From Diphasiastrum complanatum (lineage: Eukaryota > Streptophyta > Lycopodiopsida > Lycopodiales > Lycopodiaceae), in contig CM055100.1 of NCBI GenBank assembly GCA_029204225.1, forward strand, positions 3,633,089 through 3,697,088: a DNA stretch of 64,000 nucleotides, given 5' to 3'. The notes below the pieces were generated by a model. That model was given only the letters and a program-made list of their open reading frames with translations, had not been told where the DNA came from and did no database searches. This document shows positions 3,763 through 61,612 of the stretch, piece by piece (position 1 is the stretch's first letter; each line of letters starts with the position of its first letter). A program made the translations under genes and the position numbers.

Positions 3763-4681
3763 CTTTCAAAAAGTGTTTATTCAAATGAAATTTAGACTAA
3801 TGAACTTTGAAAAGTCAACCTCTAAGTCTAAAACAAGTTTTGGCCTCAATATGCCAAATATGGAAATATTGCAAAATGTGATGAAACTAGTTGAATCTTT
3901 CACAACCAGTAGGTCGAGGAAACGGATTAAAACCAAGAGTCAGAGTGGGAGAAGCATAAGCTCTCCAGTTGACTCAGATTTTTGAAAGCTTATAATTTTT
4001 TCACTCACACGATTCACCAACGAGCCAGGCTACCCTAAACCATGGCATGTATTCAAAAGAGCTTTCTGAGAATTTGTGGGAAAATTCTATTACAAGTGAG
4101 CTCACATCAAGGGAGGTAGAACCCATAGGGATTTCAAGCCTTGTCTTAATTTTGTAAGAATCTACACAATTAATACATGAAGAGTTGCAGTCTGACATTC
4201 AGGTTGTGATGTTCATCATGCACCATGTTTACCAGAATCTAGTTCACAGTTTTTTATACCTGCATGACGTCTTTAATTCGACAATTTCACTTACTTTTTC
4301 TAAATGAACTGATGTAGATTTGAAAGGTGTAGTGCTCATTAATCTACTCTGCTGAAAGCTCTTTATAGAAGCGCTAATTATCAAGCACTCAAACTTGGAA
4401 ATAGAGAAGGTATTCTTTGAATTTGTGACATTTGTTTCAGAAGTATTTTCAATCAACCGAACTTTGTTTCAGCATTGATGGTTGCTACCAAGCTTTTTTC
4501 CCCTTCCTCACGTTGTTGTACATGTGCAGTGCTTTTTCTGCTTTGTGTATGAATTCACTTTGAATTTTCTATGAAATCAGTTGCGTTGGCAGAATGACTA
4601 AGACTGTCCAATGTGGTGGCACACTGAGATTGACTTGTTCTAAGAATATGCAGATTATAATGACATAGAATATGGATGCAG
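3763..4681. other. Presumed ISA3-like intron, no feature seen
   Basis: AT-rich sequence between the Copia LTR and the first visible isoamylase exon. I see no exon, repeat or transposon domain in it. Short open frames on both strands lack recognisable content. Confidence 0.5.
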
Positions 4682-4782
4682 GCCATTGCCAAGGATCCAG
4701 TCTTGTCCAAGTGCAAACTGATTGCAGAGCCATGGGATTGTGGAGGCTTGTATCAAGTAGGAAATTTTCCTAACTGGGACAG
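4682..4782 (+). CDS. ISA3: ISA3-like exon with acid/base Glu
   Basis: Encodes [20 protein letters not shown] and the following [14 protein letters not shown]. Acceptor is ATGCAG and donor GTAGAA; it ends in phase 2, completing AG|G (Arg) with the next exon. This is the most 5' exon I could find; the preceding exon is presumably beyond the window start. Confidence 0.9.
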
Positions 4783-7700
4783 GTAGAATGCTGGAAAAAT
4801 AGTATAACATTTTTTTAGGGAATGGAAGTGGTTGAGACGCATTGGATAAGCCTTAAATTCTATAGCTTTTCTGTGCATGCAGATGTTGAGGTTCCCATTA
4901 TCATTTGTATCTGTTGAAATTTAAATTCTAGCAGATGTTTTTTTTCCTCTCCTCTGGTTTACTATCTTTTATAGAATTACTGTTTTTCAGGTTGAGATTT
5001 TACAAACTTGAGTAGTTGAAGCTTTTCTGAAATATGAGTATGAGAGCACCTGACATTAGAATGCTATTCACATACACAAAGACAAGAAAGAAGCCTTCTA
5101 AAAGACCAATTGGCAACAGCAGGAAATGCTTGCTCTTGCATAGACTGTACCTGTTCTAGTAACTCTTGACGTTATTGTCAATACAGGTGGGGCGAATGGA
5201 ATGGCATGTATAGGGATGCTATACGGAGGTTTGTTAAGGTATACCATCTGAAGTGGATTCTGTAACTTTATAATCAATAAAGTACCTAAAGCAAACGAAA
5301 GGATTATTGGGACAATGACTTTCAAAAGGTTCCACTCAATCTGCACATGCTAACTTTATGCTTTAGTACCTAGGGAGATGAAATTTGAATTTTGCATTCT
5401 GTATGCACATGTGCCTCCTCTCTAGATAATTCTTCTGAATAACATCAATTGGAATATTGTGAAGTTAGCTTTGACTTTAACGCTACAAATCAAACGGACT
5501 TCTCAAATATTGGAGTCGTGAAATATTCACTTTGAGTGTTGTATTGGTGAAAGTGACAATTTATATTAGCATGCCAAGCACCACATTCTCCTAAAGGATC
5601 ATGCTGCTGAACAATGGTAAGTATAGAACTCAACCTGTACTTTGTTATGTTGGCAGGGGGATCCTGGAATGAAGAGTTCATTTGCCACGCGACTTTCTGG
5701 TTCTGCAGATCTATATAATGTGAGTTGTGATTCTATATACAGTATACATATTAATTGGTATGCTTTTGACATGTGTATATGTACCAGCTTCATGTGGAAT
5801 GTTGCTATTTTACCAACCTCAAGATTCTTGAGGAGAAGTTGAGCATCATATACTTAAATAATAAGCTACTTAACATAAGGTAAATTTTGAATCCAAGAGA
5901 GTACTCTCACTAGCATACACACAGTATTGGGCCATAAACATTCCCCCATCCCCCATCCTTTCAAAGCACAGATTATAGCATATTACTCTCTATTTTTGTA
6001 GTTTGATTCACCTATGCACATGTATATTGAAAGGCCATAGAACAACATAATGATATTAGATCAATCTCAGAATTGCTGTTTGTTTAAATACAGAATTGCT
6101 CAATAACAAGAAAGCCACGTTCCCAATCAAAGTTGTTATGCTCCTTCCCTGCCTATAGGTCTCAAACTTCTGTAAAGTATTCAGGGGGAAAAGCAAATGG
6201 TAAGTACAGAGTCTTGGATATGATACTTGTGAGAATGACATAGCTATGGATACTAGAAAGGTTATATGATGCAAGCATGAAATCATCCAAGTACTGCTTA
6301 TGGGTGAAGACGTTCAAGGGAGAGAATTTTTTAAATCAGAAATTAACCAAATTAAGTGCCCATGATTAAGTTTTTGTCAAATTAGTTACTTCAGAGGGTA
6401 ACTAATTACTTGAGCAATGAATATATGATCGTGTTTCAAGTATGGCCACAAGTCCTATCATGTCTTTCAATTTTGACACTTTCATTTCTGATGAATCCGA
6501 CAAAGAAAAAAAGAAGTTATAAGCTTAAGTCAGTCATAAGCTGAATTGAGATTCATTGCATCATGGTTCTGATGGAAAAGATATGTTGAATGTGGTGTCT
6601 GATCTTAAAATGGACGCAACTTCGGAATGATTAAGATCTCTTGTCTGTCTGCGCAGCTGATGAAGCTCACCCATTATAAGTTTTGACAATAATGCTGGGG
6701 TAAGTTTTTATTCAATTTATTGACCTCAAGAAATTTGGAGTAATCTCTTGGGCACATTTCTTAAGGAAGCACAGTCCGAGCATGTACCTTGGTGAACTAA
6801 AGACTTTGTGAAATACATTAGGATCTCATTCTCACAATAAAGGAAATAGTCCATTCATGAAACATACAAATGTGTGGTACTGGATCTCAACACAACAATC
6901 AAGCAGAGCATGCCCAAATATATGTATTATCATACTTAACCAGAAAAGTAGATTCAGCTCATCGTTTCTACACCATATATGTATTGAAGTTTGGAAGCGT
7001 AATGGTATACATCCATCATCTATTGCTAGAGATATAATAGATTTCATTATAGGAACAGATAAATTATTTTTTTTGAGACACATGAGAAGAATATGTGCAT
7101 TCTTGGGATATAGGCGGGATTCAGTATATAGGACAGAGGTGAGATCCACGAGTGTCGAAAGGTTTAGGTGGGGTCACATGCTTATATAAAGTCATTACAT
7201 CTGATCATGGAGTTAATCAGACATGATGAGTATGCACAATATATCTAGGTTCACCTCATATGAGTGATATTGGATTGGACGGGAATCTCTTTATCGCAGC
7301 TTGCTACTTTCCTCTAGATTCCTTTGTGGAGGCATTGATTCTCCTTGTGCTAATCTTTCCGTAGACATTTTCGGATTCGTAGGTTGAGGGTATGTTCTTC
7401 TTACTGGCAATCTTAATGCTAGGACCGCCGTGAGATAGACTTTCATGATGCTACCGACCAGTTACGCATACGAGCCATGACATGAGAGTCGCCAGACCTC
7501 AGCGACCTCAGCCAACACACTGGTACTATCACTAGTTATGGTGATTTTTTGTTGCAGCTAGTTGAAGCCCATGAGCTAGCAATTTGTAGTGGCCTGGCTT
7601 GTTGGCCTGATTCGAGCAGTTACACATGCCATCCTCATAGTGGCGGACACAATCTTGGCAACTACCCCTTGGGAGCACCATCTTTCATTCCATTGATATC

Positions 7701-10700
7701 CCATTTCCAAATATTCGCTACTACTTCTAATCACTCTTTTGTCTTTGATTTGCCAGCTGTGTTCCCTATCCGAGGTGGAGTTTGGGGATCACTTCTTATT
7801 TAGATGTCCAGTCTACTATGAGATCAGAGGGAGGTATCACTGCCTCTTCTGTGATTCACTTGTCACACATTGAAGTCCATTATAGCATGTGAGGATCCAC
7901 ATTGTGTTGCACTCATGGTCAGGGAGATGTTTCTACTATGACGGATCTATGTTTGCCAGTCCACTCTCTAACGTACGACTCCAAATTAGATCTTCTTCTC
8001 TCATAGGAGATCACGGATCGATCTAGCCTCAGTTGCCAATGGGGATGACAGTGGCACTTCCCGACATAGAGACCAGAGACTGTGTACTACCATATTCATG
8101 CTACTGGTAGAGCCATAGGTCATACCATGAGGAGACACACATCTCGTAGACAACCTTCTAGACAACTGGCACCCTTCCTCTCCCTCTCGCAACAACTTGC
8201 ATCATGTGCTTTTCTCATTCCCAATAGGACATCATGATGACATTATATCATTTGACTATCATTTATATCAACACATACTTTTACATTTCATCCCTCATTT
8301 AGTCTAGTTCAATTTAGATTATTTAGAAGTTATATCTACATGTACTTTTCATTATTTGTTTTTGGAGACGTTCCATGTGCTCCCATTGATGCCACATATT
8401 TGACATATATTCTTTTTGTCTTATATGCCGATGTGAATCCTTCATCTGTTGCTGCTGCTGTGCATCAACAACAATCTTTAGCTGATGCTGCTACTACAGC
8501 CCATCCGCTCTCCCTCTCCACTTTCCCTTCACCCTCACCCTCTTCCCCTCCATCTTCTTCTCTATCAGCATCTTATGTTACCTCTTCTCCTTGATCTTTC
8601 TCTGCTTCATCTTTTTCTTCTTCTTCTTCTTTTTTGCTGCCTCTTCTTCTTCCTTGCGTATCAATACTCCTACTCTCAAGAACCCTACACTCCCACAAAG
8701 ACAATGGAGTCCTATATTGCATCTAGGCATACTATTGCATGATTTTCAATGTTTGAAGATAGAGTTACAAATGGTTCAGACTGAGATGGCCTGTCTCAAA
8801 AAGGCTAATACCAAGTTGCATTAAGAAGTGGATATGCTGAAACAAGAATTCATATCCGAGCTGCTCCTTGCTACATTGAACCATCACATAAACTCAAAGA
8901 ATTGGCGAACTAAATCGAGAAGCAACAAGAAGCTCTTTCTTGGGTGACAATTCTCAAAAAAGGTAGTAAGCCAAGTGCTCCTATTTCTTCAGTTATTTCA
9001 GCTACTCTTTTTGCAAGGAAATCTAGGGAGTAGAAAGCACTCTGCATTAGAGTAAGAGGCATTGTGGATACTCATAATGCTCTTGAAGAAGCAAAAAATT
9101 TCCTTGAGGTTACACTAAAGATTTGGATTCAGCTTGGAGAACAACACGGATAATGCTACCCCAATCATTTGTGTTGAGAGTCGTCGAGTTGCTTTACGTT
9201 GTAGAGCCAAGCTATGAGGTTATCAAATCTATACGATGATGATCTTGCATACATGCAGGTTGAGGAGACGCCTAAAGCCTTCCAGGAAGCTAAAGTGTCA
9301 TGCAGACATGCTATCTACAGGGATGGTCGAATCCGATACATTGACAATACGTCTAGAGATTCCAACAAATAGGAACTCGAGGTGCCTGGTATTTAGAGCA
9401 TACTAGGGCCCCATCCACGTCATTTGCAGATTGGGCTTTGGAACTATAATGAAATACATTCATCATCCACTATTAGTGATTTGATTGACTTCATTGGTGA
9501 GAGAGATCTATTACTTTCCATGGAGACTCATGAGAGTCAGGAGAGACAACTAACTACTTTTTCAACTTACAGATGGGACGCGGTCTATTGACATGAAATG
9601 AGATCCGCCAGTGGTAGTGGTTCAGGAGGGGTTGCTTGTTTATAGAGGGAGTTGCTACATCCTATCTTTGAGTTTTTCATCCATGATGAGCACTCACGAT
9701 ACATTCGGTTCCGCATCAATGGACATAGCATCAATTCAGACAGGGACTCCCTCCCGTGTTACTTCCCTCCAGTGTCCTCTTCCTTTGTGAATTGTGTTGG
9801 TTCACCATACAATGATCTTTCCACGGGCATTATTATAGATATGCAGAGGGAGATTATATCTTTCTCATTGTTGACTTTAATGCCAAGATAGCTTAGACTT
9901 CTATGATCCTACTGACCAACTTTGTGTACATGCCCTTGATGGAGATGACTCGAGAGTTACCAGGACCTCAGAGGTTATTTTGGGTCCTACTACCACCTAT
10001 GGAGAGTACCTATTGTAGCTGGGAGAAGAATCGGCCATTTTTAATGGTCTAGCGTGCTAGCCTAATTCAAGTAGATATACATGTCATCCTCACAATGGTG
10101 GGCAGAGTGTAGTTGCCATTTCCATCTCCCCTAAACCCTTTGAGTTCACGGTCTTCACTGCTGATATGGTCCATTATCCTAGAAGGTGAACTAGTAATGT
10201 TGGAGGATACTGCCAACCCATGGAACCTGCAAAGGCCAAGGATACGCGACCAGATCAGTTGAGAAATTGTTTGGTTTCTAAACGTCTGATTTGTTGGAAA
10301 GGTAACTCAGATGATGAGGACACTTGGGAAGAAGGAAGAAGACCTTCGACTAAAATTCCCTAGATTTCTACCTTGAGAAGGAATTTTTTAAGGGGGAGGG
10401 AATGTCATGTACCATAACGATATGACTATGAGGTGACAACGTCACCATGAGGTGGAACACTAGATTGACATTGTCAATAGTTTTACTGCTATGTGTCTGC
10501 ACCTCAGGCTATCTCGTGACAACAAGACCCATTTGTACTTTGTAGATAGAAGTGGGAGAACCCTTTATGATCCATTCAATTTACTTGAGGAGTGGTGGAT
10601 GGGATGCTGGTTATCATAGGGGTCTTGGTTAGCCCAGTTGTGTCAACATTTCCGATGCACGGGGGTGAGTTGGGAATGGCTCTATAGATGGGCAGTAAAA

Positions 10701-13700
10701 GCGTTTGTCACTTGTTGTTTGAAGTCCACCTTATGAAGATTGGTCAAGTAGTTTATAACATAAATGGTACCTAGACATTAGTGCATCATCACATATGACA
10801 TCTCATAAGGAGTGGTTTATTGATCATGTGAACGAAGGCAACAAGAATGAAGTAATTTTGGGTGATCATAGCACACTAAGCATAAAAGTAGCTAGCAACA
10901 TAAAATTTGGACTTCCTTTTTCTCTTAAAGGGATGGTCAAGAATGCTCTATTGGTGCCCAATCTTGAATTTGTTCTTTGTAGGTTCTTACAGATCAAGGC
11001 CTTAATTATGAATTTTATAAGGATAGATTTCTTGTGAAGGATATTAAAGCTTACTTTAAAGTGGTTGTTTAGGGCTTTGGGTGTGAATAAATTGTTTGTG
11101 CTTGAGATTCTTTTAGTGCATCATGCCTATGTTATTCAAGAAAATCGTCAAAGCACTTTGTGGCATGAAATGTTTGGACATCCTAAATTCCTAACTATGG
11201 TAGCGTCAAGCTACTGCATGATAGAGGGATGGTGTGGGGAATTCCGAAGATCATTCAAAACACTAGCAAGCCTTCAAAGTAGGTACATATTGTGCCAAAG
11301 ATGTATTGGGGCTAATAAATTGTGAACTTTGGAGACTGGCCCAAACACAATCACTTGGAGATTTATACTATTTTCAATCATTTAAAATGATTTCTCTCAA
11401 ACAACTTGGTTCTAGTTTCTAAAGCATAAATTTGAAGCATTCTCTTTCTTTGTTGAATTTAGAACCTTGTGGAAAATTAAACCGGAAAGAGAATCAAAAC
11501 ACTAAGGACAGATGGTGACGTTGAATTCAACTATGGTGATCTTATTCCTTTTGTAGAGCACATGGAATTAGACATAAGTTCATAGTCTCATATACTCCAC
11601 AGCAAAATGGAGTAGCAAAGTGAAAGAACTGCACTCTTGTGAAGTGTGCTCAAAGCATGATGATGGCATGTGGCTTAAGCAATTTTATATGGAGTGAAGA
11701 AGTTCAAACAACAACATACCTACAAAATCGGTCTCTGACTAAATCTTTGAAAGGTACGACTCCTAAAGAAGCTCATATTGGACATAAGCCAAGTGTCGCA
11801 CATTTTAGAGTTTTTGATGCTTATGTGCACATTCTAGATGAGACACATAGAAAACTTGTTTCAAAATCTCTAAAATGCATTCTTGTTTGATATTCTCTAA
11901 CTTCTATAGAATACAAGCTATCTGAACCCCAGACAAGAAGCTCATTATAGGTTGTGACATCATTTTTGACAAAGGAAGATCTGCTCATTATCCCCAGGAG
12001 GTTACTCAAATAAACACGTAATCCTACATGACAAAGAAGAGGATACAAGTGGTGAATTTACCAATCCTATTGACGCTAAAACTCAACCTATTGACGATGA
12101 GGTAACAACTCCAGCCCTATCATTCATTATTCAATTCAAGAAGTTCCTAGAAATGATTGAAATGAGGCTTCTACTTCCACAACTCCTACTTGTGTAAAAA
12201 AGAGAGTTAAATTTTGAAGCTAGTTGAAAAAACTATACAAGAATCAACTAGAGAGTCAAGCAACGACAACCAAAGAAGTAAAATGATACATGGGATCTTG
12301 TGGAGCTAGCCCAACATGACTAAGTAGATTTATAAGTTGAAGTATGAATCTGATGGTTCACTTGACAAGCATAAAGCACTTCTCGTAGCAAAAGGTTATG
12401 TTCAAAAGGAAGGTATTGATTACAAAGAATATTTTTTCCATGTTACGATGAACACCATTTGTTGTATATTGGCTATAGCATTTCGTTTTGATTGGCATAT
12501 TGCTTAAGTAGATTTTAAAAGTGCATTCTTGAAGGAGAAATCTACATATCTCAACCTCAAAGTTAAAAGGCAAAAATTATCTTGTTTGTAAACTCAAGAA
12601 AGCATTTTATAGTCTGAAGCAAAGTTGAGGGTCCGGGCCGGAATGCCCGCGTCCGTGTCCGGCGTCCGGACCCGGATGCGTCCGACCCCGGACGCAGGGT
12701 CGGACGCGTCCAATTTTTTTTTTTTAAACTAAAAATTAAAAAAAAAAAAAAAAACTGATGCGTCCGGGGTCCGGACGCACGCGGAACTTATTCAATCACT
12801 CTGTAGTCATTCAGTGAGTGAAAAGAAGTCTGTTTACAAAATCCTGTATCCATATAGACTCCCACGAAAACTCAATTACATGGTGACAGTATTGGAACTG
12901 CATTGGAATCTGAATGTCTGATATCAAGGATTTGCATGTTGGTACGCAGGTAAATAAAAGAAAACCTTATCACAGCATTAACTTTATCACGGCCCATGAC
13001 GGATTCACCCTTTTTGACCTTGTTGCGTATAATGAAAAGGTGAGCTCTTACACGTGGAAGCTTTTGTCAGGAAGGGATGTTGGGTTGTTGACTCCAAAAA
13101 TGCTTTGTGGCATACGTCTCCTTTATAGTGAGCTTAGTTTTAGAGAAACTTACACTTCACTGTATGGTGAAAGTTCATTGGCTATTTGTGCATTTTACAT
13201 CGAGCAGCATAATGATGCCAATGGAGAAGATGGCAGAGATGGTAGCAACGATAATTTCAGTTGGAATTGCGGCTTTGAAGGTAATGGGTGTTTACAGTGC
13301 TCAAATTGAATAGATAAACTATGCAGAATAAGATAAGATAAATGGCACACTAATCATATTGCAATGTTCTGGTTGATTTTCTTTGGTTTATGACAACTTA
13401 CTGAAGACTATATTTTGCATCAACAATGTACACTGAAGCTGACATTGAATGCTATCCGAGAAGACTAGTAAATGTCTGCTATTAATTTCACTAAAAGTCT
13501 AAGCAAAGTGGAAATACAATAGTATCGTGACTATAGTCTATTCAATTCAAGCATCTCATGGTGAATCTTATCCTTCAAATAATATTAGTCTATACGACTT
13601 GTGAAATTATGGCATATGCAGGTGAAACAAATGATTTCAGCATAAATGCTTTACGTCAGAGGCAAATGAAGAATTTCCTTCTAGCACTTATGCTTTCACA

Positions 13701-16700
13701 GGTTTGAAGTGGGGCACAGTCTAGATAAGGAAATTGAAGGGCTAAGATATTTTAGAGACTACCTTTGTTCAGCAATTTATAATCAACGTGTGTCTATTTG
13801 AAATATTGTTCCAAATTCGCTTGTAATATCATTCATGTTAGTCTGTTGTGCCTGTTCCTATTCTTTCAATAAGACTTTAGCATCATTACTGGCAATGTCA
13901 TATATAGTTTTAAGCCCAATGGGAAAGTTATTTTCCTGAAGGAGCTATATGGAGCTCTTTTAGATGCAATGTTAGGCACTTTGACAAACATTTAACCGAT
14001 AAATTTGGACCTTGATAATTTTGCACCTTACCGCAGAGTCCACTTTTGGCAGTTTAATTAGTGGGTCATTGTCCCAAGTACTTTCAGAGGCACTTCAGGA
14101 GGCAGGTGGCCTTCTAATGGGTCCCCTGAACCATCCAAAACCCCGATCTGATCTCCTCCTAGAAGATTAATAGATCTCTACAGTGGAATCTTCTAGGAGG
14201 AGATCGGGTCATCGAAGAAAAGGTGTGCAAAAACAATCTCTCTTCCTTGTTTGGTTACTTCGCTTCTTCGAAGTTTTATCTTTTTTTGGGGTTGAGCCTC
14301 TGTAGCAGGGTTCTTCAAGGCAGTCTAGTGCCAAGTTTTCTGTGTTTTTTTGCTGGAGAATTATCAAGACGTTGGAAATTATTGCTACCTTTGTGTGATG
14401 GCGATAAGTTGCTATTGTGTAACACCCAGCTCATAAGACTTATCAAGACTTATCATGAAGCTAGTATGGCTGAATTGAAAGGAGAAAGTTTTTTAAGTAT
14501 GGGCTCCCTTGAGTTTGACGACAAGTGCCTTCATTTTTCTATGCCTTAGTTTCTCTCAGAGACTCCACCTGACTATTAGCCATATTTTGTGAGCTCCTAA
14601 ATCTCTGGCATATGGTGCTAGCATGATTCAAAGAAATGATGTCCATTTTACACCAGTTGCTCTTCAAACTATGTCCTTTCTTATGACTCTATGCTAGACG
14701 CAGCTATGAACCTCCAGTGTAGAATCAAAGATGGCTATGACCAGTCGCAGGACTCTTCAAAGAGAATCTGTATCTTCTGGTGATGGGCATGGTACAAACT
14801 CACAAACGAGTAAGACCGCTTGTTAAACATAAATAGAAAGCAAGTATAACATTAGATAAAAGTTAAAACCCCACGGTCCGAAATAAACAGAAGCTAGATT
14901 CTTTGACTTGGTCATGACAATTTAAGATTATATTTCAGGCGGATGTTATAGGTGACATGTCCAGGTGCAAAAAGCCCATATATCACCTTACAAGGAGTTA
15001 GGCTGCGATCAAGAATGAGATATAAAAGATAAGCATGGGTACTTGAGATAGCAAATAATAACTTAAGTCCTATAAAAGGACATATACATATTATAATGTG
15101 AAACAGGTTAATATAGTCAAAATTACCTATCAAATATTTTGTTGAAAAAACTTTGTACCTGATTTTAGACTCGCAGAACCCAGAACTGATGGACTGCAAC
15201 TGTGGTTTTCATTGTATTTCTACTTTACTTTTCTCATACTCTGGCATGGACTGAGTTGAGAACATACAGGGAACACCCATGGTGCTAATGGGGGATGAAT
15301 ATGCACACACACGATTTGGAAACAACAACAGCTATGGCCATGACAGCTTGATCAACCATTTCCAGTGGAATCAGGTTTGATACCTGATGAACATTGAATA
15401 TTTCAGTATCACTATAATAAAACGTGGTGATTTTCAGGTCTCCATGACACTTAATTAGTTTCCGAAAGAAAAATTACATTAAAAAAAGGAAATTTTGTTT
15501 ATACAAATCTGTAGCGTACACTCATAGTAATTGTATTGTTTTCGTATTGATTTGATTCTGCAGTTAAGGAGTAAACACACAGACCAGTTTCGATTTTTTG
15601 CCGGCATCATCAGGCTACGGAGACGGCACCCACTTTTAGGACGTGCTAATTTTCTCTTAGAAGTATCTTCATCTCCATTATTTCTGTATCATGATGTCAC
15701 ATATTTCCATGTTTTCTGCTTCTCCTTGATGCGCTTCTCTCAACATGATTAGGGATTTGTCAAATGTTGTCTGAGATTGCATCAGAGTAGAAGTAAATCA
15801 ACATGTATGACAAACTGGTATTCATGAGGGGTCCATCTACAAGGAGCTCACAATTGTGGGATGAGATGCTAACAAGTAGATAGTAGCTCTTATTAAGAGT
15901 CAGAACATAATGGCAGTTAAGGCCACCTAAAGCCCTCTGAACATATCAGAATCCTTATAAATTGTGTATCTTTATCTGAGCAAAAAAAGCCCTCTGAACA
16001 TTCCAGAATCCTGTACCAAGATTCATAAATTGTGTATCTTTATCTGTGCCATAAAAAGCCTAACTGACAACAATACAGCTGAGCTCCAATCTTGTCTGAC
16101 AAGGGTTCATAAAATAATGCAAGCAGATATTTCAAGAGAAACTGGAATTACAATGTGATATATTGGCTAGAATCATAGACTTTATACTGAGGTACCAAGA
16201 GAATCGTCAGTCCATAATACTTGATCACCGTGGCTGTTAAGAAACTGAAGATCAAACCTTAACAGCTTCACCCATGCTGAAAAAACCGAAGATCAAACCT
16301 TAACAGCTTCACCCATGCTGAAAAAACCGAAGATCAAACCTTAACAGCTTCACCCCTTAACAGGTTTGATCGTTAGTTTTTTTGGTTGGGTGGTTTGGCT
16401 CCACAACTATCCTTTTGGTGTTTGCAGTAGGATCTTTACAGTGGTATCAGAGCCTAGGCTTGCATCGATTAGAAGGTGAACACGCTTTTTAGGGATTAGT
16501 GTTATGGACGTTTTTCATAGCCATAATTGTATTTCACTTGAAATTTAATGGCTTTTTGACTAGCATTTATAGTTTTAGCTTGAATTTCATGAAACGTACT
16601 GTATGTTAATGATTATAATGGGAGTACTTGCTATTTTTCAGTCATTATGATTGATTCTAATCATTGCATGCCGCTTATACTCAGTGTACACACTTTCAGC

Positions 16701-19688: not shown

Positions 19689-22539
19689 AAGAAAGAAAGA
19701 AAGTAAGAAAGCTTTATTAATGTCTTTTCCATGCCAAAAGGCATATAAGACTAATGAAGTACAAGCGTATAAAAAACGTCTCCAAACTGTAATAAAGAAA
19801 AACATCTGGTGCAACCTAAAATAGACACGTATGCGAGAATGTGCATAATAATAATCATATGTGTCTCGGGTAAGATGTCAAGGCTGTGTTGCATCTGCTG
19901 TGCTGCTACTGTAAAAAGATGTAATGCGAGCCACAATATGGGAAAGCACTGAACTCTGCCGGCGGCGTCTGTGAGTATGAGCACGTGTATGTGTGATAGT
20001 AGTAGTAGTACGCCCCTGCGTAGAATGTCTAGTAATCCTGGTGGTATCCTGATGGTGAGAGGTACACTGTCTCTGATCTCTATGAGCATGAGAGCGGCCA
20101 ACACCCTCGTCGTCATCCTCATCATAATCCTCATCCTCAGGTACTAAATCATGTGATCTCCGTCTAGTAAAGAACGAAGTAATCAATGGCTGTGAGGTAA
20201 AATGCTGGGGTGTCTCGTATAGATCTCTCAGTAGTCTGGACATCTCGTGTACCATGAGAGCGACACACCGTGGGTCCTCATAAGCTATGAGAGATCGTAG
20301 AGTGTTAGGCATCTCTCGGAACAGGCAGTGATATCGTCCTCTAATGTCATAATATACAGGGCACCGAAATATAAAGTGCTCCTCAGACTCCACCTCACCT
20401 AGGGAGCAGAACTGGCAAATCCGCTCCTCTCTGGGAATACCGTGGAACCTCCCAGTCTCAATAGCTAGCTGATGAGAGGACACCCTGAGTTGCCCCAATG
20501 TGAATTTGAGGCAGTGTGACAATCCCGAGTCCAAGTAGCGTGGCATGACCGGGGTCCCTGATGCATCTAGCTCCAAGAAATGAGTCCGATAGAAAGTTGG
20601 CTTAACCCCTAACTGGTTACGCCAAGTCCGCTCTAGATATGTGCGATAAAGGAAGCGTCTGATATACTGATGTGTGCCGGAGGGGAGCTCTGTGATGGAG
20701 ATGCCAAATGATACAAGTAGGAGGTGAGAGGCCTGAGAGAACCATGATAGCCTGTAGCCCTGATCATGAAGACGCTGTGAGGAGGATAGTGCAACCTGTA
20801 TGTATCGCCTGTCTATCTCTGGTAAAGCCTGTATCCTTTGTATATAGGTGATAAGCTGAAGAACTGCCTCGATCTGTATAGGTGGAACTACAAACTCGGC
20901 CAGGAGAATCTCATGGGGAACAGAATGCTTCGCTCGAATCAACCGAGCTAGCATGGTGGTCTGTAATCGTGAGAGACTGGCCCAGTGTGAAGAAGGAAGA
21001 CCTACATACCATGTCTCTGCCGCATATAAAGCCGTGAGGTTAACAATGGTATCGAAGAGGTGACACTTACTGCGAGCATCCTGGATGGACTTGCGGAAAC
21101 AAAATCGCTCTAGCTGAACAAGGGAGGCATGTCCTTTCCCTAGTCGAGTGGTAGCGGCCTGTCTCATGTTAAAAGTAGGACCTGAGAAAAGGACCCCCAA
21201 GTATGTGTAGGAAGGGACCACCTCTAGAATTTGTTCGCCCAAAGTAAGCTCCTGTCGCTGCATGAATGCCCTCGAAGTGTTGAAGACCATAACCTTGGTC
21301 TTCCCAATGTTCACCCCTAGATCTGCTAGGTGCACTATTAAGAAAGCGCACTCGTCCATCTCGGTAAATGACTCGTCTGCCAGACTCACAGGCTGCCTGA
21401 AAGGCCTTACGCCTCTCCTCTACGTGGATATATGTGAGGTCATCATCCATATAGATAGTGGTGCCCACGAAGCTTAGCTCTGCACCGCAGAGCGTCTCGG
21501 CGACTCTCTAGAGAGGTGAAACGTATAATGAGTGTAGCGGCATCTCTGGAGGTCCTCCAAGCTGTATCTAGCCCATGTGTCATATGTCCTAAGGTGGTCT
21601 CAAGAAATCTCGTGGCCTCGGCAGTGGCATCCTGTGTGTCTGGTATCCCACGAACCCTGATGTTGTGGGCCTTTTGCTCCTCGACCTCTCTTCCGAAATG
21701 GTGGCGAAGATGATGGAAGAGATGGGGGCGCTAGGTTTGGTGCCTTTCTGCAAGACTGCTGCCCATGAATCTTTATGCTGCTCTATTTTATTCTCAAGAT
21801 CCTTTATCTTGGTGGTGGTTGATTCCGATGCTGCAACCTGCTTAGTGTTGATCACCTACTCTAATGAAGCGACTTTGGACTTAACACATTTTTTTCTTTG
21901 AGTAAGGAGACCACTATTCCTTTCAGTTGTGATAGTTCATGTTTCAAAAGCTGGAAATCGGCTTTCATTTGGTCAGCTTCCCAGGAAGAGAATAGTTCCG
22001 TTGATTTGGAGGGAGTGTATGGGATGGGTGCGCAGATGGGGGAGCTGTGGGTTCTTGAGGAATAGGGATAGGAAGAAGGCCTGTAGGAGTGGTCAGAGCA
22101 ATAGGGTGGGAGATTGATGGAGATGAGGAAGATGCAGAAGAAGAAGAAGATGAAAGAGAGGGAGGAACCACAGAGGATAAAGAAGAGAGTGAGAGTGGGA
22201 AGAAGAAGAGGAGGAAGAAGAAGGTGCCACACCATCTGTATGGCAGGTCTGAGGACAGCGAGGGGGCAGCAATGGGGGAGGTATTAGTGTCTGCAAAGAG
22301 GGGGGGGGGGGGTTGTTTCCAGCAGCGATGGAGCAGCTGTCTCCATCAGCGATGGAGGAACTGTTGTTTCCAGCAAGGGAGGGGATGTTTCCAGCGAGGG
22401 AGGGGGAGGAGACAGGAGCGATTTCAGCGAGGGAGGGGGAGGAGACAATAGCGAGGGGGGAGCGGGTGGTCCGACGTGGAGGGAGTGAGGAGATGGCGCG
22501 AGAGACAGGAGGAGCAGATCCAGATCCGCGTGGAGCCAT

Positions 22540-25500: not shown

Positions 25501-26281
25501 ATTAATATCTTTTGTTGTTTCAAACTTGTGAAGGCTACATGAGAGAGATCTAGGCGGTGGGGATCTGTATGCAGCTTTCAATGCACATTCATATTTTGTC
25601 AACACAATTTTGCCGTCTCCACCAGATGGAAAACATTGGTACCGACTGGTAATGACATATGTTATCTTTCTTCAAGATTGTGAGGAATCTTGTTCAAAGG
25701 ATTTTCTTTCTTGGATGAAGAGAATGCACATGTTGCAGTACATAGACTTAGTGTGTACAAATTTTGTAGCTTGTTGACGTATCCTTCATCCAGTGATGTG
25801 CAATACATAAAAAAATTTGATTGCTTCCGGCCTTCATGTTACAGGAGCATTTCTGGATTGTGTTTTAATGGAACTCTAACCTCGTATCTAATGAAAGAGT
25901 TCATGTTACTCATGTTCATGTCATAATCAAGCTGTAACTATACATTAAAAAAAAATTCTACTCCTGGTCTAAATCTGGGTTTCCAGAGGAGGTACTATAA
26001 GAGATCACATGGTATTTTATCTTTTCTGTCTTTTAAAGATTTCTACTTCAGCATGCAAGGATATAATCTGCACAAATTGATAGGTCATGTTTCATGATGG
26101 ATAGTGAGCTTCTAGTGCTGATGAAGTCAACAAAGCTCACTTAAAAGTTTGTGAAATGTCTGAACAGGTTGACACAAATCTTACCTCACCTGATGATTTT
26201 GTGGAGGAAGGAGTCCCTGGTGTACTTGGTACTTACAATGTTGCTCCATTTTCATCTCTGTTGCTTCATGCAAAGGCATAA
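4682..26281 (+). CDS. ISA3: Isoamylase-type starch debranching enzyme, ISA3-like (3' part of gene, 11 exons)
   Basis: A GH13 isoamylase hydrolyses alpha-1,6 branch points of plastid glucans; the ISA3 class is known for starch breakdown. Exons: 4682-4782, 5187-5238, 5657-5719, 12950-13039, 13208-13280, 13622-13701, 15270-15374, 15564-15662, 25340-25401, 25534-25648 and 26168-26281. They total 954 nt, 317 residues plus TAA. All introns are GT-AG and every junction keeps phase. Visible motifs are [11 protein letters not shown] (general acid/base Glu), ITAHDGFTL (transition-state Asp), [23 protein letters not shown] and [10 protein letters not shown]. The nucleophile motif GFRFD is expected in an exon left of the window. 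The tail [14 protein letters not shown] and [15 protein letters not shown] resembles ISA3 as I recall it more than ISA1 or ISA2. No stop or frameshift occurs in any exon, so the gene looks functional. Introns 3 and 8 (7.2 and 9.7 kb) are filled with transposons. The class call (ISA3) is less certain than the family. Confidence 0.9.
5187..5238 (+). CDS. ISA3: ISA3-like exon ([10 protein letters not shown])
   Basis: Encodes [17 protein letters not shown], the conserved stretch after the active-site Glu region. Acceptor is ATACAG and donor GTATAC; it ends in phase 0. Confidence 0.88.
5657..5719 (+). CDS. ISA3: ISA3-like exon ([13 protein letters not shown])
   Basis: Encodes [20 protein letters not shown] plus N, 21 codons. 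Acceptor is GGCAG and donor GTGAGT. The following intron is 7,230 nt and full of transposon debris. Confidence 0.9.
5720..6979. other. ISA3-like intron 3, left part, no feature seen
   Basis: AT-rich intron sequence before the first LINE fragment. No motif or exon recognised. Confidence 0.5.
6980..8200 (+). mobile_element. LINE fragment A: endonuclease fused to RT C-terminus
   Basis: Endonuclease-like sequence starts near 6990 ([23 protein letters not shown]) and continues through CYFPLDSF and LNART near 7400. It ends at YTCHPHSGG, the endonuclease C-terminal block. At about 7700-7770 it jumps to the C-terminal cysteine/histidine tail ([15 protein letters not shown]), which matches the tail of LINE-C on the - strand. 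The reverse transcriptase between them is missing. Frameshifts and stops are frequent. It is non-functional and sits in ISA3-like intron 3. Confidence 0.7.
8430..10140 (+). mobile_element. LINE fragment B: ORF1 followed by endonuclease, truncated
   Basis: A low-complexity Ser/Pro-rich N-terminus near 8430-8600 is followed by a coiled-coil-like stretch (8740-8900) and an ORF1 C-terminal domain near 9100-9340 ([24 protein letters not shown]). The endonuclease starts near 9440 ([27 protein letters not shown]) and reaches [12 protein letters not shown] near 10080-10110. No RT follows. It is the same family as LINE-C: IYRDGR(V/I)R and DD(D)L(T/A)Y are shared. Many frameshifts; dead copy. Confidence 0.7.
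10190..10402 (+). mobile_element. Gypsy 3' end: chromodomain remnant and polypurine tract
   Basis: Around 10250-10350 the + strand reads [20 protein letters not shown] then [12 protein letters not shown], resembling the C-terminal chromodomain of plant chromoviruses (WKG, D..TWE). A polypurine tract AGGGGGAGGGAA at 10391-10402 is followed by TGTCAT at 10403, an LTR-like start. There is no integrase upstream, so only the extreme 3' end remains. Confidence 0.55.
10403..10740 (+). repeat. Probable Gypsy 3' LTR fragment
   Basis: Starts TGTCATGTACC right after the polypurine tract. The right edge is unclear, because Copia sequence begins near 10741. No second copy is present for comparison. Confidence 0.4.
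10741..12625 (+). mobile_element. Degenerate Copia element (Copia-2), no LTRs seen
   Basis: Protease remnant [18 protein letters not shown] near 10768-10825 (the DSGA motif is mutated to DISA). GAG-pre-integrase [11 protein letters not shown] is near 11155. Integrase tail PQQNGVAK and [17 protein letters not shown] is at 11600-11735. An RT fragment with many stops spans 12290-12625. The frame is interrupted throughout. It lies in ISA3-like intron 3. Confidence 0.8.
12626..12785. repeat. GC-rich GCGTCCGG-type repeat flanking an A/T tract
   Basis: Repeated GCGTCCGG/CCGGACGC words lie on both sides of an A/T-rich tract of about 45 bp (12713-12758). The block can fold on itself. Composition is sharply unlike the AT-rich surroundings. 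Confidence 0.6.
12950..13039 (+). CDS. ISA3: ISA3-like exon with AHDGFTL motif
   Basis: Thirty codons starting [20 protein letters not shown] and ending AYNEK. It carries the His-Asp pair (AHD) that contributes the third catalytic carboxylate of GH13. Acceptor is ACGCAG and donor GTGAGC. Confidence 0.92.
13208..13280 (+). CDS. ISA3: ISA3-like exon ([11 protein letters not shown])
   Basis: Encodes [20 protein letters not shown] followed by CGFEG. Acceptor is GAGCAG and donor GTAATG; the Gly codon is split G|GT with the next exon. Confidence 0.92.
13622..13701 (+). CDS. ISA3: ISA3-like exon ([17 protein letters not shown])
   Basis: Encodes [20 protein letters not shown] and ALMLSQ after completing the split Gly codon. 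Donor is GTTTGA; phase 0. Confidence 0.9.
13702..15269. other. ISA3-like intron 6 with one hairpin
   Basis: Apart from the inverted repeat at 14141-14208 I see no coding or transposon motif in this 1.57-kb intron. Confidence 0.5.
14141..14208 (+). repeat. Inverted repeat, 19-bp perfect arms, 18-nt loop
   Basis: Arms 14150-14168 (GATCTCCTCCTAGAAGATT) and 14187-14205 are perfect reverse complements. The outer CCCGAT/ATCGGG can extend the stem past a 5-nt bulge. It lies inside an intron. It could be a small RNA hairpin or a transposon remnant. Confidence 0.7.
15270..15374 (+). CDS. ISA3: ISA3-like exon ([11 protein letters not shown])
   Basis: Thirty-five codons with [20 protein letters not shown] and [15 protein letters not shown], a highly conserved isoamylase block. 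Acceptor is TACAG and donor GTTTGA. Confidence 0.93.
15564..15662 (+). CDS. ISA3: ISA3-like exon ([14 protein letters not shown])
   Basis: Thirty-three codons beginning [20 protein letters not shown] and ending ANFLLE. The donor is GTATCT, and the next exon lies 9,677 nt downstream. Confidence 0.88.
15663..16246. other. ISA3-like intron 8, left part
   Basis: No gene or element recognised. A phrase containing AAGCCCTCTGAACAT occurs twice (about 15927 and 15988), a short local duplication. Confidence 0.45.
16247..16372 (+). repeat. 41-bp tandem repeat, about three copies, plus inverted partner
   Basis: The phrase GAAGATCAAACCTTAACAGC recurs three times with a 41-bp period. It is followed at 16360-16385 by its partial reverse complement (AGGTTTGATC). 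It lies just before an LTR-retrotransposon primer binding site. Confidence 0.8.
16442..16454 (+). other. LTR-retrotransposon primer binding site, + strand
   Basis: TGGTATCAGAGCC follows an LTR-like end (CTTTACA at 16434-16440). An LTR should lie to the left, overlapping the 41-bp repeats, but its start is unclear. The internal sequence to the right has no recognisable gag. Confidence 0.7.
16455..17690. other. Leader-like sequence of the element with site at 16442; nothing recognised
   Basis: No ORF of recognised content. It probably is the untranslated leader or a decayed internal region of an LTR element. Confidence 0.35.
17690..18520. repeat. Cluster of GGCGAAGGTT / AACCTTCGCC motifs
   Basis: About a dozen copies or near copies of GCGAAGGTT occur in both orientations, for example at about 17795, 17926, 18182, 18344, 18404 and 18506. 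They alternate with unrelated sequence. Neighbouring inverted copies could pair. Confidence 0.6.
18521..19655. other. Intron sequence, no recognised gene
   Basis: A 103-codon + frame at 19012-19323 and a 158-codon - frame at 18279-18755 are open, but neither has a recognisable domain. I do not call them as genes. Confidence 0.4.
19657..19705 (+). repeat. (GA)n(GAAA)n microsatellite at LINE-C 3' end
   Basis: GA repeats are followed by GAAA repeats, which on the - strand form the pyrimidine-rich tail of the LINE after its AATAAAG signal. Confidence 0.9.
19878..21389 (-). pseudogene. LINE-C reverse transcriptase C-terminal half
   Basis: A 503-codon open frame. The first 20 or so residues are out-of-frame ORF1 sequence. 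[20 protein letters not shown], the TYLGVLFSG block and YAAETWYVG are classic non-LTR RT thumb motifs. A zinc-finger-like tail [20 protein letters not shown] and YYDIRGRY follows. The YxDD palm motif and the endonuclease are missing, so the protein cannot retrotranspose. The frame is well kept although the element is deleted, suggesting either a young deletion or trans-mobilisation. Confidence 0.8.
21330..22539 (-). pseudogene. LINE-C ORF1, frameshifted
   Basis: Starts [20 protein letters not shown] in a Ser/Pro-rich repeat region. It continues in other frames as the coiled coil [20 protein letters not shown], then [33 protein letters not shown] and [17 protein letters not shown] to [12 protein letters not shown]. 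The last part resembles the L1-type ORF1p C-terminal RNA-binding domain. At least two frameshifts are present, including one near 21450. Confidence 0.65.
22300..22312 (+). repeat. 13-bp poly-G run
   Basis: Thirteen G in a row within the low-complexity part of LINE-C ORF1. It is a likely site of length error. Confidence 0.9.
22541..22571 (+). repeat. (GA)n microsatellite at LINE-C 5' end
   Basis: About 15 GA units; read on the - strand it is a CT tract directly upstream of the ORF1 ATG. Confidence 0.9.
22600..24247 (-). mobile_element. LTR-retrotransposon leader and 5' LTR, interrupted by LINE-C
   Basis: An LTR at 23852-24247 has TGTTATG...CATAACA termini. The adjacent - strand primer binding site reads TGGTATCAAAAC (23840-23851), a two-mismatch version of the usual site. 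Leader-like sequence runs left to about 22600, where LINE-C begins. No gag or pol of this element was recognised beyond the LINE. Confidence 0.65.
23852..24247 (-). repeat. LTR, 396 bp, TGTTATG/CATAACA ends
   Basis: Terminal inverted heptamers and an adjoining primer binding site define both edges. ATAAC follows on the right as the candidate target duplication; its partner was not found. Confidence 0.7.
24248..25339. other. ISA3-like intron 8, right part
   Basis: No exon or element domain seen. A short ATTT repeat (about 24617-24632) and the pair ATTCCAGAACG / ACGTTCC near 24680 are the only structure noted. Confidence 0.45.
25340..25401 (+). CDS. ISA3: ISA3-like exon ([15 protein letters not shown])
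   Basis: Encodes [20 protein letters not shown] plus a split Thr codon (AC|G). The donor is GTAAGT. The WHED.WDNP motif is the strongest pointer to the ISA3 class. Confidence 0.9.
25534..25648 (+). CDS. ISA3: ISA3-like exon ([15 protein letters not shown])
   Basis: Encodes [20 protein letters not shown] and then [18 protein letters not shown], the C-terminal beta-sandwich domain. Acceptor is TGAAG and donor GTAATG. Confidence 0.9.
26168..26281 (+). CDS. ISA3: ISA3-like terminal exon
   Basis: Encodes [20 protein letters not shown] and then [17 protein letters not shown], followed by TAA at 26279-26281. The VAPFSSLLL ending is the usual C-terminus of plant isoamylases. No clear polyadenylation signal was identified. 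Confidence 0.92.
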
Positions 26282-26746
26282 GGTGGTCATTTTCAGTTGA
26301 GCATTTGGGAAAAGCCTGGCCATGATACAAATACTATTATTTGCTCTCTTCTGCTGCTCAGAATCTTATCTTCAATTGCAGTATTTATGTGCACACTGTA
26401 CATGGCATGCTACAATATAGTTTCACCTTTGATATATCTCTACTTGTATTATTCTACCTGCATACTAGCAGTTTGAGATACTTCTGAATGCTGTACTTCA
26501 AATGTTGGCCTTTAGAGACAATAATGTGCTACCAATTTGCATGAACATATTTTTGTTCTCCAAAAGCACTATGTTGGTGAAGACCAACTCCTCTTTTCGG
26601 GTCCACAACCACACACAGCTACAATATGACATATCAGAAAGACATATTTTTGCTCAATGACACATACAAAACCATCATAAGTTCTCAAGACTAAAGCATA
26701 CCCCAACATATGTAAGGTCTGTTATCAGCTGTTTTGCAAAAAGTAC

Positions 26747-27082
26747 TTATTTTATGGCCTAGCATCTGTGGCTTGTGGATTTTCTATTCTAATCTCACTG
26801 CTGATAACAAGCCAAAGCAACATATCTAGTGAGTTCAAATCTGGTATAAATTGCGAAACTTTTCGAGCCAAAAGAGAAGCTTTGAACATCAATATGTAGA
26901 ATCTGTTTATCAGCCGTTTAGCATTAGAGGTACTTAATTTATGGCCCATATCTTTGGCTTTGTGGATTTTCTATGCTAATCTCAAACTAAAAAAAAGCCA
27001 AATCAACATATCTAGTAAGATCGAATCTGGAATAATCTGCAAAACTTTTCAAGCTGAAAGAGAAACTTCTTACATCAATACG
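26747..27082. repeat. Diverged tandem duplication, about 150 bp, downstream of ISA3-like gene
   Basis: 26747-26898 and 26936-27082 share long phrases, such as GTGGATTTTCTAT, CAACATATCTAGT and ATCAATA, in the same order and orientation. Confidence 0.75.
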
Positions 27083-28425
27083 TTTTATAACAATCTGTTT
27101 CAAATAGATGTGAAAGAGGCGATTAAGGCAAGAATTACAATAAATTGTATCTGACATGCCTCTGTAAATAGTTTCTGTGGCAATCCTTGTTTGTAAGCTT
27201 TCCAATAAATTACATGAAACATGGTAGAGTTTTTTTTTTAAACTTCTGCTTTTCATAGAGAAATTCTGTGTGCATCAACCTGTCATTGGAAGTCTACGAT
27301 GAGATATTGGCATTCTTGTGTTGATGAGTCGTTTCTTGTGATGAGCTGCTATACTCTGAACTTGATATCCTTTGTAACCTAAGTGTCAACAATAAAACCT
27401 CGAAGATTTCTAGCAGCTTAAAACAGATTCTGGGAACATATTCATTGCGTTATTCATCAGGTTCCTAGATAATGGATGAAAATGTACACATAAGCATATG
27501 CATGACAACCCCAAGGCTCAAGCTAATGTTGTGCCTTTTTCGTTATCTATATATCATAATTGCAGATTGAGGACTTTTATATATAATGCAATTTGTCCGA
27601 ACTATGGCATTACAGTTCAAAACTTCATCAAGAAAGCTTGAATGATATCATTAAGATGAAAATACTGCTCTACTTGGTGCTATACCTCGTAGGACCATGT
27701 TTTATCTCCAAGGATATAATCATGTTTATTTAGCATTTATTATCACATGTGCAAGTCTTCCAAGCAGTCACTTCTCTTAACCAAACATGAATATTCCATT
27801 AAAACAAAGAATATGCATGGATACACAACTTCATGATATAACTAGGAATGAAACAACAACATATGGAACTCTACAACAATAGGCAAGGATGTATCTCCTT
27901 AAGCAACAGTGGAAGCTTTCACGAATCAAACAAATACACAAGTCTGCAATTCATTTCAATAGAGATTTAGTAAGAAAGGAAAAGCTAGATCTCAAGTATT
28001 GTGATCCCAATATAATGTTGGCTTATATTATAACTATCCTTTTTCCTAAAGAAAGGTTCAAAGGAGGGCTAAAACATGAAATTGAGAGAGGAAGTTAAAA
28101 GTAGTTGGTTGATTGTTGACTTTCAACTTTCAGTTTATTCTGACCTCATCAAGTAGATGTGGCCTGCGAGGCCTCACATTTTAAACATGTCTTGGTGAAC
28201 TATGTAAAAACGTAGGGATATCACGTTTCTTGATGCTATTTGCTCTCCATGTACAAATGCAATGAAGGAATAGATGGATGATGTACACTTTTCAATTGTT
28301 ATTTGTCTTTTATGTGTTGCTTGTGGGTTGTCGTTGTACATAGATTATTGAGCACTCAAATTTATGGAGCAATTGTGCTCATTTGTCACTTGTGAGTTAT
28401 CACTTCAAAAACATAGTGATTGAAA
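27083..28425. other. Convergent intergenic region or intron, nothing recognised
   Basis: AT-rich sequence with no exon or element motif. AATAAA near 27392 is too far from the ISA3-like stop to assign. Confidence 0.4.
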
Positions 28426-28518
28426 CTCTCTGAACTTGAGCAACAGGTTGAACAAAGACCTACTACTTGCTCCCATAGTAGTAGGTCTTTGTTCAGCCTG
28501 TTGCTCGAGTTCAGAGAG
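28426..28518 (+). repeat. Near-perfect hairpin, 42-bp arms, 9-nt loop (candidate small-RNA precursor)
   Basis: Arm 28426-28467 pairs with 28477-28518 over 42 positions. The only two differences (T opposite G) become G-U pairs in a + strand RNA, so the transcript would fold without mismatch. Pairing stops abruptly on both sides. The arm contains CAAAGACCTACTACT. It has the size of a compact plant MIRNA foldback or a young inverted duplication. I recognise no known microRNA in it. Confidence 0.75.
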
Positions 28519-30640
28519 GGGTGGCGGGGGGGTGCAACTACTAATTTATGTCTCCTAAACCCTATGCAAAATAATCACTGGGAATCGACTTCAGGACACG
28601 TTCTGGTTGTCTAACAGTCCTTTAGCAGCTCTCCTGATGTTTCAGAGATTCAAAACCGAGTTTGAAAGGAGGACTACCGGCTTGTATGGCTGCACTCCTC
28701 TCAGGATCACAACATGCTCCCTGCATAGATACTCAGGTTCTATCAAAACAAAAAGAGTAAAATAGAACTGTCTTGTAGGGAACATCAAATTCCAGGGAAC
28801 TCTTACTAAAATTTCAGCTTTCACTTCTGCTTAATGTTAGTATAACTGCCTTCCACCTATGTTCCTTATCATGCAAGTTCACATGAGGATTTTGGGTATA
28901 GAGAACCAAAAAAATGACATGATTTAGAACATTATGGCCTTAAGCATGTATCCTAAACATTAACCAAGTATAATCCAGCCATGAAACAAGCAACTGGATC
29001 CACCACAGTAGATCATTCTACAACAATTGAAAGTTTCCTCAAGAAAATGGGAACTTCACACTAATTCTCAGCAGCTTTAACAAAATCGAACATGTAGAAG
29101 AGCACTCTACCACCAATTTTGAAAAGCATGCCTCACTCAGGAATTAAGGAATCCATCCGTACTCCTCTTGTTGCATTCTGATTTTTCCTGATTGGTCTAA
29201 CATGGCAAACTCAAAATGTCAACTATGGTTTACTTCCATGGCACAACCTGACAACTTGTTGCACTTCACGGCTTTCTCAACACACAGGACAAACCTTGTC
29301 TTGTGTGTCTTCTAAATCAAGCTTGTCGACAAAGCTTGGGTCAAGAAACAAAAAGAGATGACCTAGAAATTTGTTTTTTCAAAAAAGTTATATATTTTGT
29401 ATAGATTGTCAATATTCAAAATGCTTAATAAACAATTGTTGGGTTAATTTATTATTTTATCTTATTAAAAATTATGACAATGCTAACCAAAAGATTTATT
29501 AATTCATTTTTTATATACCTATATTTGTATCTGAATTTTTTATTTTTATTTCTTCAAAAAATTCAAAATAAAGTTGTTTGTTGTGATGGTTAAGAATATA
29601 GAAATTTTAGAACTATAAAACACTTTAATTTGATTATTTAAATTACACAACATACATTTCAAATATTATGATATAGAAAACTTAATATTATTATGCATGA
29701 ACTTAAAATATTCCATGTGATTTTTGAAATTTTGAATGTCAAACAAAAATATATATGTTTCTTTTATCTTCAACAAAAACTAGATATAAAACAAAATAAC
29801 ATTATAACATTAATCTCAAATAAATAACAATAAGAAAAAAGATAAAATACTTTTTCCTTTTTCACAAAAGGAGAAATCCATTTCAAGATGTCCAAAAGTC
29901 ATCGAGTTTACTTGGGCTTTTTGTTTTTTAGGAAAAGCGATAGTTGGCTCTTTGGTTATGATATTTTAAATCAAAAATTTACAATCCAATTCTAAGACAT
30001 TTGACAAATCTTCCATGTCACCAACCTTCTCACTAGTAGGAGGTTGTGGCTCCTTAGACAAAACAATTGTAGAGTCATCTAATCTATATTTTTTCTACTT
30101 ATGTACATTTCGGAGAACATTAATAGACGCCATTCTCAATTTAATATTTTGTACTAATTTACTCTCTAATATCACTACAACAACATTGTTAAAACTTGCA
30201 TTTTAAAATGTCTATTAAGATCTTTAAGCATGAGAGATTGCACACTACCAAAACTATGATGATCAAACTCGGATTTTGAAGAGCTATCAAACTAGCTTCA
30301 TATCTTGGCAATAGCTCTTGTACACAAATAGAGATCATTCATCAAAGACAAGCAAGAGAAGAGTACATGAGCTTGTGAGATTACAAGGTAAAAGTAGAGA
30401 GAGAAAAAATCTCTCGATTTTCTACAACAAGAGAATTTTGTGACTCAAAAATTCTCTCTCAAAAGTATGTACAATGAGCTCTCCATCAAGAATATTATAG
30501 TGAGAGCTTCAGCTTCTACTACAATTAGCACGTGGTGGACCTTAGAATGTGAATGGACCTCTCATTGTGAGCCTCAAAGTGATAGAATAAGGTGCACCAC
30601 TTCCACTTTTGCATCACCTACAAAATAGGACATCTGTTGA
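28519..30640. other. AT-rich region, no recognised gene
   Basis: The stretch 29350-30250 is very AT-rich. Short open frames show no domain. I see no splice-consistent match to the missing last exon of the SNARE-like gene. Confidence 0.4.
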
Positions 30641-31784
30641 CCCTTCAAGTCGTTGGGGTGATCTTGAATAGATTAGGTGCGGAATAGCAACATAGAGAAA
30701 TTTTCAAGATCTTTATCAACGCTGCAATATCAATATTGACTTAGATCGAATGGAGGAATGCCTTGGTAGGTGTCATAGACAACCATGAAGGGAGCGAATA
30801 ATTAGGCATCTGAGACAGACATGCTTCCTTCGAGATTAGACATTCCGAATAGAGTGTGTGTCAATAGAGAAAGAAATTTATCAGAAAGCATTCATATGTC
30901 AATAGTGATGAGAATCGTTGGAACGAACTCTTGCATTGGCTGCTTCTGCTTGAAGTCGAAAAATTTGTCTTCGAGAAAGACGACATCTCGACTAACTGAG
31001 ATTCGGCTCGTTTCGACATCGTAGATTCAATATGCCTTGTGTGATGTCGAGTATCCAATGAAGATGCTCCTGCAGCTAACAAGGTCAAGCTTCTTTCTCA
31101 GATCAGAGGGAATGTGTACATAGCAAAGACAGCCAAACACTCGAAGGAGTCGTAGACTCGGTTTGTAGCCATAGAAAGCTTTGAAGGGAGTCTTTGAATT
31201 GACTGCTTTGGTACTCGAATAGTTCTACAGATAGCAAGTTGTTGAAATAGCTTCAGCCCAAAAAAAATTTGGTGAGCTGAGCATTTGACATCATTGATCG
31301 TGTTGCATTTAGTAATGTTCGGTTCTTCCTTTCGGCTACTCCATGCTGCTGTGGTGTGTAGCTGGTGGTGAAGTGATGATGAATGCCGAATGATGCAAGA
31401 TAGTCAGACATTTCGTCTGACAGGAACTCTCCACCATTGTCTAAACAAATGGTCTTGAGTCATTGGCCAGTCTGTGCCTCAACGAACTGTTTGAAGTCTT
31501 TGAAACAGTTAAAAGCCTCAAACTTGTTCTTAATGAACATAATGTTGGTAAATCTAGAATAATCATAAAATATAGTGCTGAACCCATAGAGGGAGTACTC
31601 ATAGGGCCACACAAATCACTATGTATCAGTTCTAGAACAGACTTAGCTCTAGTGGCTTGCCCCTTTGGGAATCTTGATCTAGGCAGTCTGCCTAGTAGGC
31701 ACATCTCATAGACATGTTGAATGTCAGTGGAAACAACATTAAGATTTAAGTCCTTGACCATTCTATTACGATGCATATACAAGA
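30641..31784 (-). mobile_element. Copia fragment (Copia-5): integrase
   Basis: On the - strand, EMCLLGRLPRSRFPKGQA and HSDLCGPMSTPSMGSA (GAG-pre-integrase to integrase) lead to CLDNGGEFLSDE, SYTPQQHGVAERKNRT and the post-integrase GYST block near 31040. Frameshifts are present. It ends abruptly at about 31784 against the Gypsy reading frame. No LTR was identified. Confidence 0.8.
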
Positions 31785-61235: not shown

Positions 61236-61612
61236 TATGAACGCAAGAAACCGCAAGAAGGCTCCGTGTGGTTCCATGTAGTCTAGCCACCACAAGAAAC
61301 CGCAAGAAGCTTCTTGATGTCCCTTGCGGTGGGCTGACCGCAAGGAGCCTCCTTGTGGTCCCTTGCGATTCGCAAGGACCCTTCTTGTGTCCAGCCCACC
61401 GCAAGGAAGCTCCTTGTAGTCCCTTGCGCAACCACAACGGATCGCAAGGAGCCTCCTTGAGGTCCCTTGCGGTCCAGACCACCCCAAGAAGACTCCTTGT
61501 GGTCCCCCATGGTTTAGGGTACCCAACCCAACGGACCATAAGGAGCCCACCCCAAGAGACCACAAGGAGCCTTCTTGCGGTCCAGACCACCACAAGGGAC
61601 TGCAAAAAGTAT
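61236..61612. repeat. Array of degenerate inverted repeats, CCGCAAGGAG / CTCCTTGTGG
   Basis: About ten alternating copies of CGCAAGGAGCC and its reverse complement (CTCCTTGTGGTCCCTTGCG) are spread over 380 bp. Any single-stranded form would fold into successive stems. The many open frames across it are by-products of the repeat. Confidence 0.75.

Follow-up and report, generated by a model that had tools for sequence, protein, structure and literature searches.

A long, nearly perfect hairpin in Diphasiastrum complanatum as the probable result of a local template switch in the remnant of an old dispersed repeat

The isoamylase gene and the surroundings of the hairpin

The window, i.e., the whole stretch of DNA analyzed here, comprises 64 kb (C9:3633089-3697088) of the 1.74-Gb genome of D. 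complanatum. It contains a plant starch-type isoamylase (starch-debranching) gene on the + strand between positions 4676 and 26281. Exons of this gene were detected at 4676, 5188, 12953, 13175, 15216, 25532 and 26168. The upstream exons (4676-15377) are GlgX-like and were identified with GlgX using tblastn, and the C-terminal exon starting at 25532 matches the Pfam family Isoamylase_C, with plant isoamylase 2 as the PDB match. The last two exons lie within 25532-26281 on the + strand, their limits being read from the sequence: the first ends with ...WYRL followed by gt, and the last spans 26168-26281 with the stop codon at 26279-26281. The large introns of the gene contain retrotransposon debris.

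The hairpin (28426-28518) starts 2,145 nt 3′ of the isoamylase stop codon on the same strand. The interval between the two harbors two tandem units of ~190 bp, which are 80% identical (26708-27084). The first coding stretch found 3′ of the hairpin is integrase-like debris of a copia-type retrotransposon at 31253-31456 on the − strand, and the remaining long reading frames with matches in the window are retrotransposon debris as well. An initial sequence-only reading had placed the hairpin in a convergent region between two host genes. This is correct for the upstream side, where the isoamylase gene is located, but a second host gene was not found downstream of the hairpin, as the − strand neighbor is the copia-type debris. 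Overlapping CCGCAAGGAGCCTCCTTG-like repeats, some inverted and others direct, are clustered at 61322-61582. A tRNA search gave no hit and a plasmid collection no match.

Structure of the hairpin and its copies in the genome

The hairpin consists of arm 1 (28426-28467, + orientation), a loop of 9 nt (TGCTCCCAT; 28468-28476) and arm 2 (28477-28518, − orientation). In the stem, 40 of the 42 positions form Watson-Crick pairs, and the other two are G-U pairs in the + RNA. The hairpin is the strongest inverted repeat of the window. Folding of the + RNA resulted in 42/42 pairs with an MFE of −76.5 kcal/mol (z −18.3). In the − RNA both G-U positions become A-C mismatches, and the corresponding values are −69.6 kcal/mol and z −15.8. 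Folded in a wider frame, the hairpin has a z of −11.9. The 42-bp hairpin is real and far beyond chance, with stems this good expected ~5e-15 times per 64 kb and 1e-10 times per 1.74 Gb for uniform random bases. The arm length, the loop length and the two wobble-compatible differences described from the letters alone were thereby borne out by the inverted-repeat search and the + RNA fold.

Genome-wide, the hairpin is present at two places, the window and C9:4663602. The latter copy belongs to a duplicated region of ~35 kb or more, which is 99.8% identical apart from two large indels (window 2545-37558 vs. C9:4638600-4678599, ~1 Mb apart). The duplicate lacks a piece of ~0.9-1.2 kb (about 21365-22255) and carries an insertion of ~5.85 kb at 32595/32605, where an 11-bp overlap resembles a target-site duplication. 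It probably represents either an allele that was not purged from the assembly or a duplication of very recent date; the former appears likely since numerous other loci of the assembly are also doubled, on unplaced contigs. The hairpin sequences of the two copies are identical, so the duplicate adds no information on age or selection.

A search of the 1.74 Gb with a 26-nt core of the arm, allowing up to three mismatches, yielded 12 sites. Four of these are the hairpin arms, and the other eight are solitary matches from four separate loci (C12, with two further unplaced copies; C4; C6/C2438; a pair at C9:17.2 Mb). Folding of these single-arm loci gave z values of −0.3, −0.05, +0.4 and −0.8, i.e., no foldback in those checked. 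The near-perfect inverted arms, the short spacer and the TE-rich plant genome would fit a MITE or another foldback transposon, in which case the hairpin would represent a complete mobile element bounded by terminal inverted repeats. However, a genome filled with identical hairpins, which the sequence-only reading had named as the mark of a transposon family, was not observed, the only second foldback being that in the near-identical duplicate of the whole region. In addition, both arms lie within the sequence of a longer repeat family, which extends further to the right. A MITE or foldback transposon family was therefore rejected as extremely improbable.

Rearrangement within a dispersed-repeat remnant

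The hairpin lies at the left end of a ~745-bp repeat piece (28426-29170), the remnant of an old dispersed family for which more than 30 matching places (a lower bound) with 67-88% identity were found. On the right the remnant is also cut, at 29170, where relatives extend further. No LTR or terminal structure of the family was evident when four 10-kb neighborhoods were compared with each other and with themselves, and no coding domain was found in 28426-29170; the family is unclassified. The relative on C4 reads ...SEPEQQVEQRPTT... and differs from arm 1 at four positions, three of which are synonymous changes in this frame. An origin of the arm as captured coding sequence was dropped, as a Pfam search of the window frame gave no domain and the relatives represent a dispersed family diverging with many indels.

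Arm 1 is a forward copy of a repeat segment, referred to as A, with forward-order homology to the loci on C12 (L010), C4 (L007), C6 (L027) and C9 at 17.2 Mb (L029), and arm 2 is the inverted copy of this segment. The closest relative, L010, has the order U - arm - TGTTCTCCCATAGT - about 18 nt - D, where U is the family sequence just upstream of the arm. The order in the window is unique DNA - arm - TGCTCCCATAGT - arm inverted - U inverted - D. The loop plus the next AGT corresponds to the family sequence normally following the arm (TGTTCTCCCATAGT in L010). Inverted U (28519-28556, − orientation) lies outside the present stem, and its left partner is lost. Compared with L010 in inverted orientation, it reached a score of 33, whereas the maximum of 2000 shuffles was 31 (mean 12.8). 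The U match derives mainly from C12; C4, C6 and C6:74 Mb support it less strongly, and a MAFFT alignment placed related sequence in the position of U in L007, L027 and L039.

When 28477-28556 was re-inverted, the local score against L010 rose from 13 to 62. The inverted match to L010 continues for 38 nt beyond the current stem, giving an inverted tract of 80 nt in total. The first junction (CATAGT/AGTAGT) shows a 3-nt overlap, AGT, and ~18 nt of the L010 order are skipped before the normal order resumes; since the relatives are 10-25% diverged, the junctions can be placed only to within a few bases. The rest of the remnant (28557-29170) is in normal orientation on the + strand, with 88% identity to C12 over 28558-28674 and 69-86% to other copies. 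A template switch with four switch points would leave collinear ancestral sequence on both sides of the inverted tract. Here, collinearity with the ancestral order extends on the right from 28557, and on the left it comprises arm 1 and the loop, with unique DNA in place of the family sequence beyond arm 1. In sum, a reverse-complement copy is located beside its source, whereas the related loci have the forward copy alone.

The two arms also share derived changes. Both have T28436, A28452 and A28455, the corresponding bases of all relatives being C, G and G. The arms differ from each other at 2/42 positions and from the relatives at 4-11 of 40-41. A chance head-to-head insertion of two independent repeat copies, to which the dispersed nature of the family would lend itself, is contradicted by the three changes absent from all relatives and by the low divergence between the arms, compared with 10-27% between family members and arms; we regard it as highly implausible. 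As the three shared changes occur in no relative, the arms are copies of each other. Together with the single arm of the relatives, this supports a young local inverted duplication, in agreement with the young origin suggested earlier.

The most probable explanation (a probability of about 0.8) is that the hairpin was left behind by a local template switch, i.e., by a short inverted duplication, inside the repeat remnant. While the anatomy, the homology, the direction of change and the uniqueness of the hairpin can be read directly from the comparisons, polymerase template switching is the cause that we infer from them. During replication or break repair, the growing strand would have copied the arm and the next ~12 nt, and would then have jumped back and, with the opposite strand as template, added a second arm together with the adjacent 38 nt (an inverted tract of 80 nt, 28477-28556), before copying resumed about 18 nt further along. 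The original palindrome would have had ~80 bp per arm, and the loss of its left outer flank, in the same event or later, would have left the 42-bp stem.

The left flank of arm 1 is unique DNA without the U that would be expected there from a single simple switch, and a second breakpoint is required because of this absence. The pairing was correctly described as ending sharply on both sides. As the U left of arm 1 was lost, the sharp left end of the stem represents a breakpoint and not a processing signal, which is also the position where the homology to the surrounding repeat stops. A repair-coupled sub-case of the template switch, in which the ~745-bp repeat piece is a filler copied from a repeat elsewhere into a double-strand break and the hairpin formed at the invading end, would account for the missing U in one event. 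It fits the identical left edges of repeat homology and stem (both 28426) and the cut on the right at 29170. However, no donor closer than 88% was found, although the divergence values do not clearly separate the ages of the hairpin (arms 2/42) and the capture (donor ~14/118). This sub-case, whose likelihood overlaps with that given for the template switch as a whole, is possible but doubtful.

Wobble pairs, small-RNA potential and related loci

The two differences between the arms had been taken as a hint at selection on the RNA fold, as both are wobble-compatible. At 28437/28507 all relatives match arm 1, so that arm 2 changed, and at 28448/28496 the relatives disagree. If drift is neutral and 60-75% of changes are transitions, both changes would keep the pairing of the + RNA with a probability of about 0.09-0.14, or of about 0.18-0.28 when pairing on either strand is accepted. 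Since two pairing-compatible changes are thus expected by chance in 9-14% of cases, the wobble argument is weak and selection on the fold is not supported. We infer that a selected function is absent.

The structural criteria for plant MIRNA genes comprise a hairpin of <300 nt (50-300), at most five mismatches and no large asymmetric bulge, and the expression criteria comprise miRNA and miRNA* reads with 2-nt 3′ overhangs and a precision of at least 75% (PMC12594335). The hairpin agrees with the structural set, with no bulges and no mismatches in the + RNA. A young locus functioning as a MIRNA or hairpin-siRNA gene, which is transcribed, cut by DCL, silences targets and has its fold kept by selection, would be consistent with this structure and with the location 2 kb 3′ of a host gene on the same strand. 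Moreover, it is accepted that plant MIRNA genes can arise by inverted duplication (PMC1790633; PMC3237417). On the other side, no Rfam family reached its gathering threshold (best 32 bits vs. 74), and weak matches occur on the + as well as on the − strand, which would be expected of any perfect stem. The 26-nt core search for a target or parent sequence did return matches, but these are repeat-family relics, and no genic site was found in the 1.74 Gb at up to three mismatches. The wobble pattern fits chance, and the nearly perfect stem would be a poor substrate, as DCL1 acts poorly on perfectly paired dsRNA (Fahlgren et al., PMC1790633). We consider such a functional locus improbable.

A + transcript across the hairpin, if made, could be cut by a Dicer-like enzyme into siRNA-like pieces, which would match relic repeats only. 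A role as proto-miRNA or siRNA source is given little weight, and the likeliest state of the hairpin is that of a neutral scar. For new foldbacks, drift and death have been described as perhaps the commonest fate (Fahlgren et al., PMC1790633). There is a slim chance that the locus is a newborn small-RNA gene, caught soon after the creating mutation and with unfolded relatives still in the genome, whose siRNAs act on relic repeats or on isoamylase read-through.

Template-switch mutations have been described as creating perfect hairpins, including those at human microRNA loci such as MIR633 (Monttinen and Loytynoja 2022, PMC8794818). The locus probably belongs to this already described kind. It shares with these hairpins the inverted local copy where relatives have a single forward copy, the nearly perfect stem from one event, the short junction overlap and the skipped bases. 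It differs in being a plant repeat remnant, in the missing left outer part of the palindrome and in being at most a candidate source of a mature RNA. As in young plant MIRNA and siRNA loci (Allen 2004 model; Fahlgren 2007, PMC1790633), both arms resemble other loci of one family and the pairing is near-perfect, as expected of a new locus; here, however, the source is an old dispersed repeat and not a protein-coding gene. Compared with the TE-derived plant miRNA loci described previously (PMC3086885, PMC3237417), the foldback likewise arose from repeat sequence by inverted duplication, but it is not a MITE. In contrast to both groups, the locus is at most a candidate small-RNA source.

The locus illustrates particularly clearly how a single copying accident gives rise to a long and almost perfect hairpin, and its unswitched relatives, present in the same genome, give the direction of change. 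It also calls for caution, as a near-perfect stem whose only changes are of the wobble type is not in itself evidence of selection. New plant microRNA genes are assumed to develop from scars of this kind, and the locus could therefore serve as a test case.
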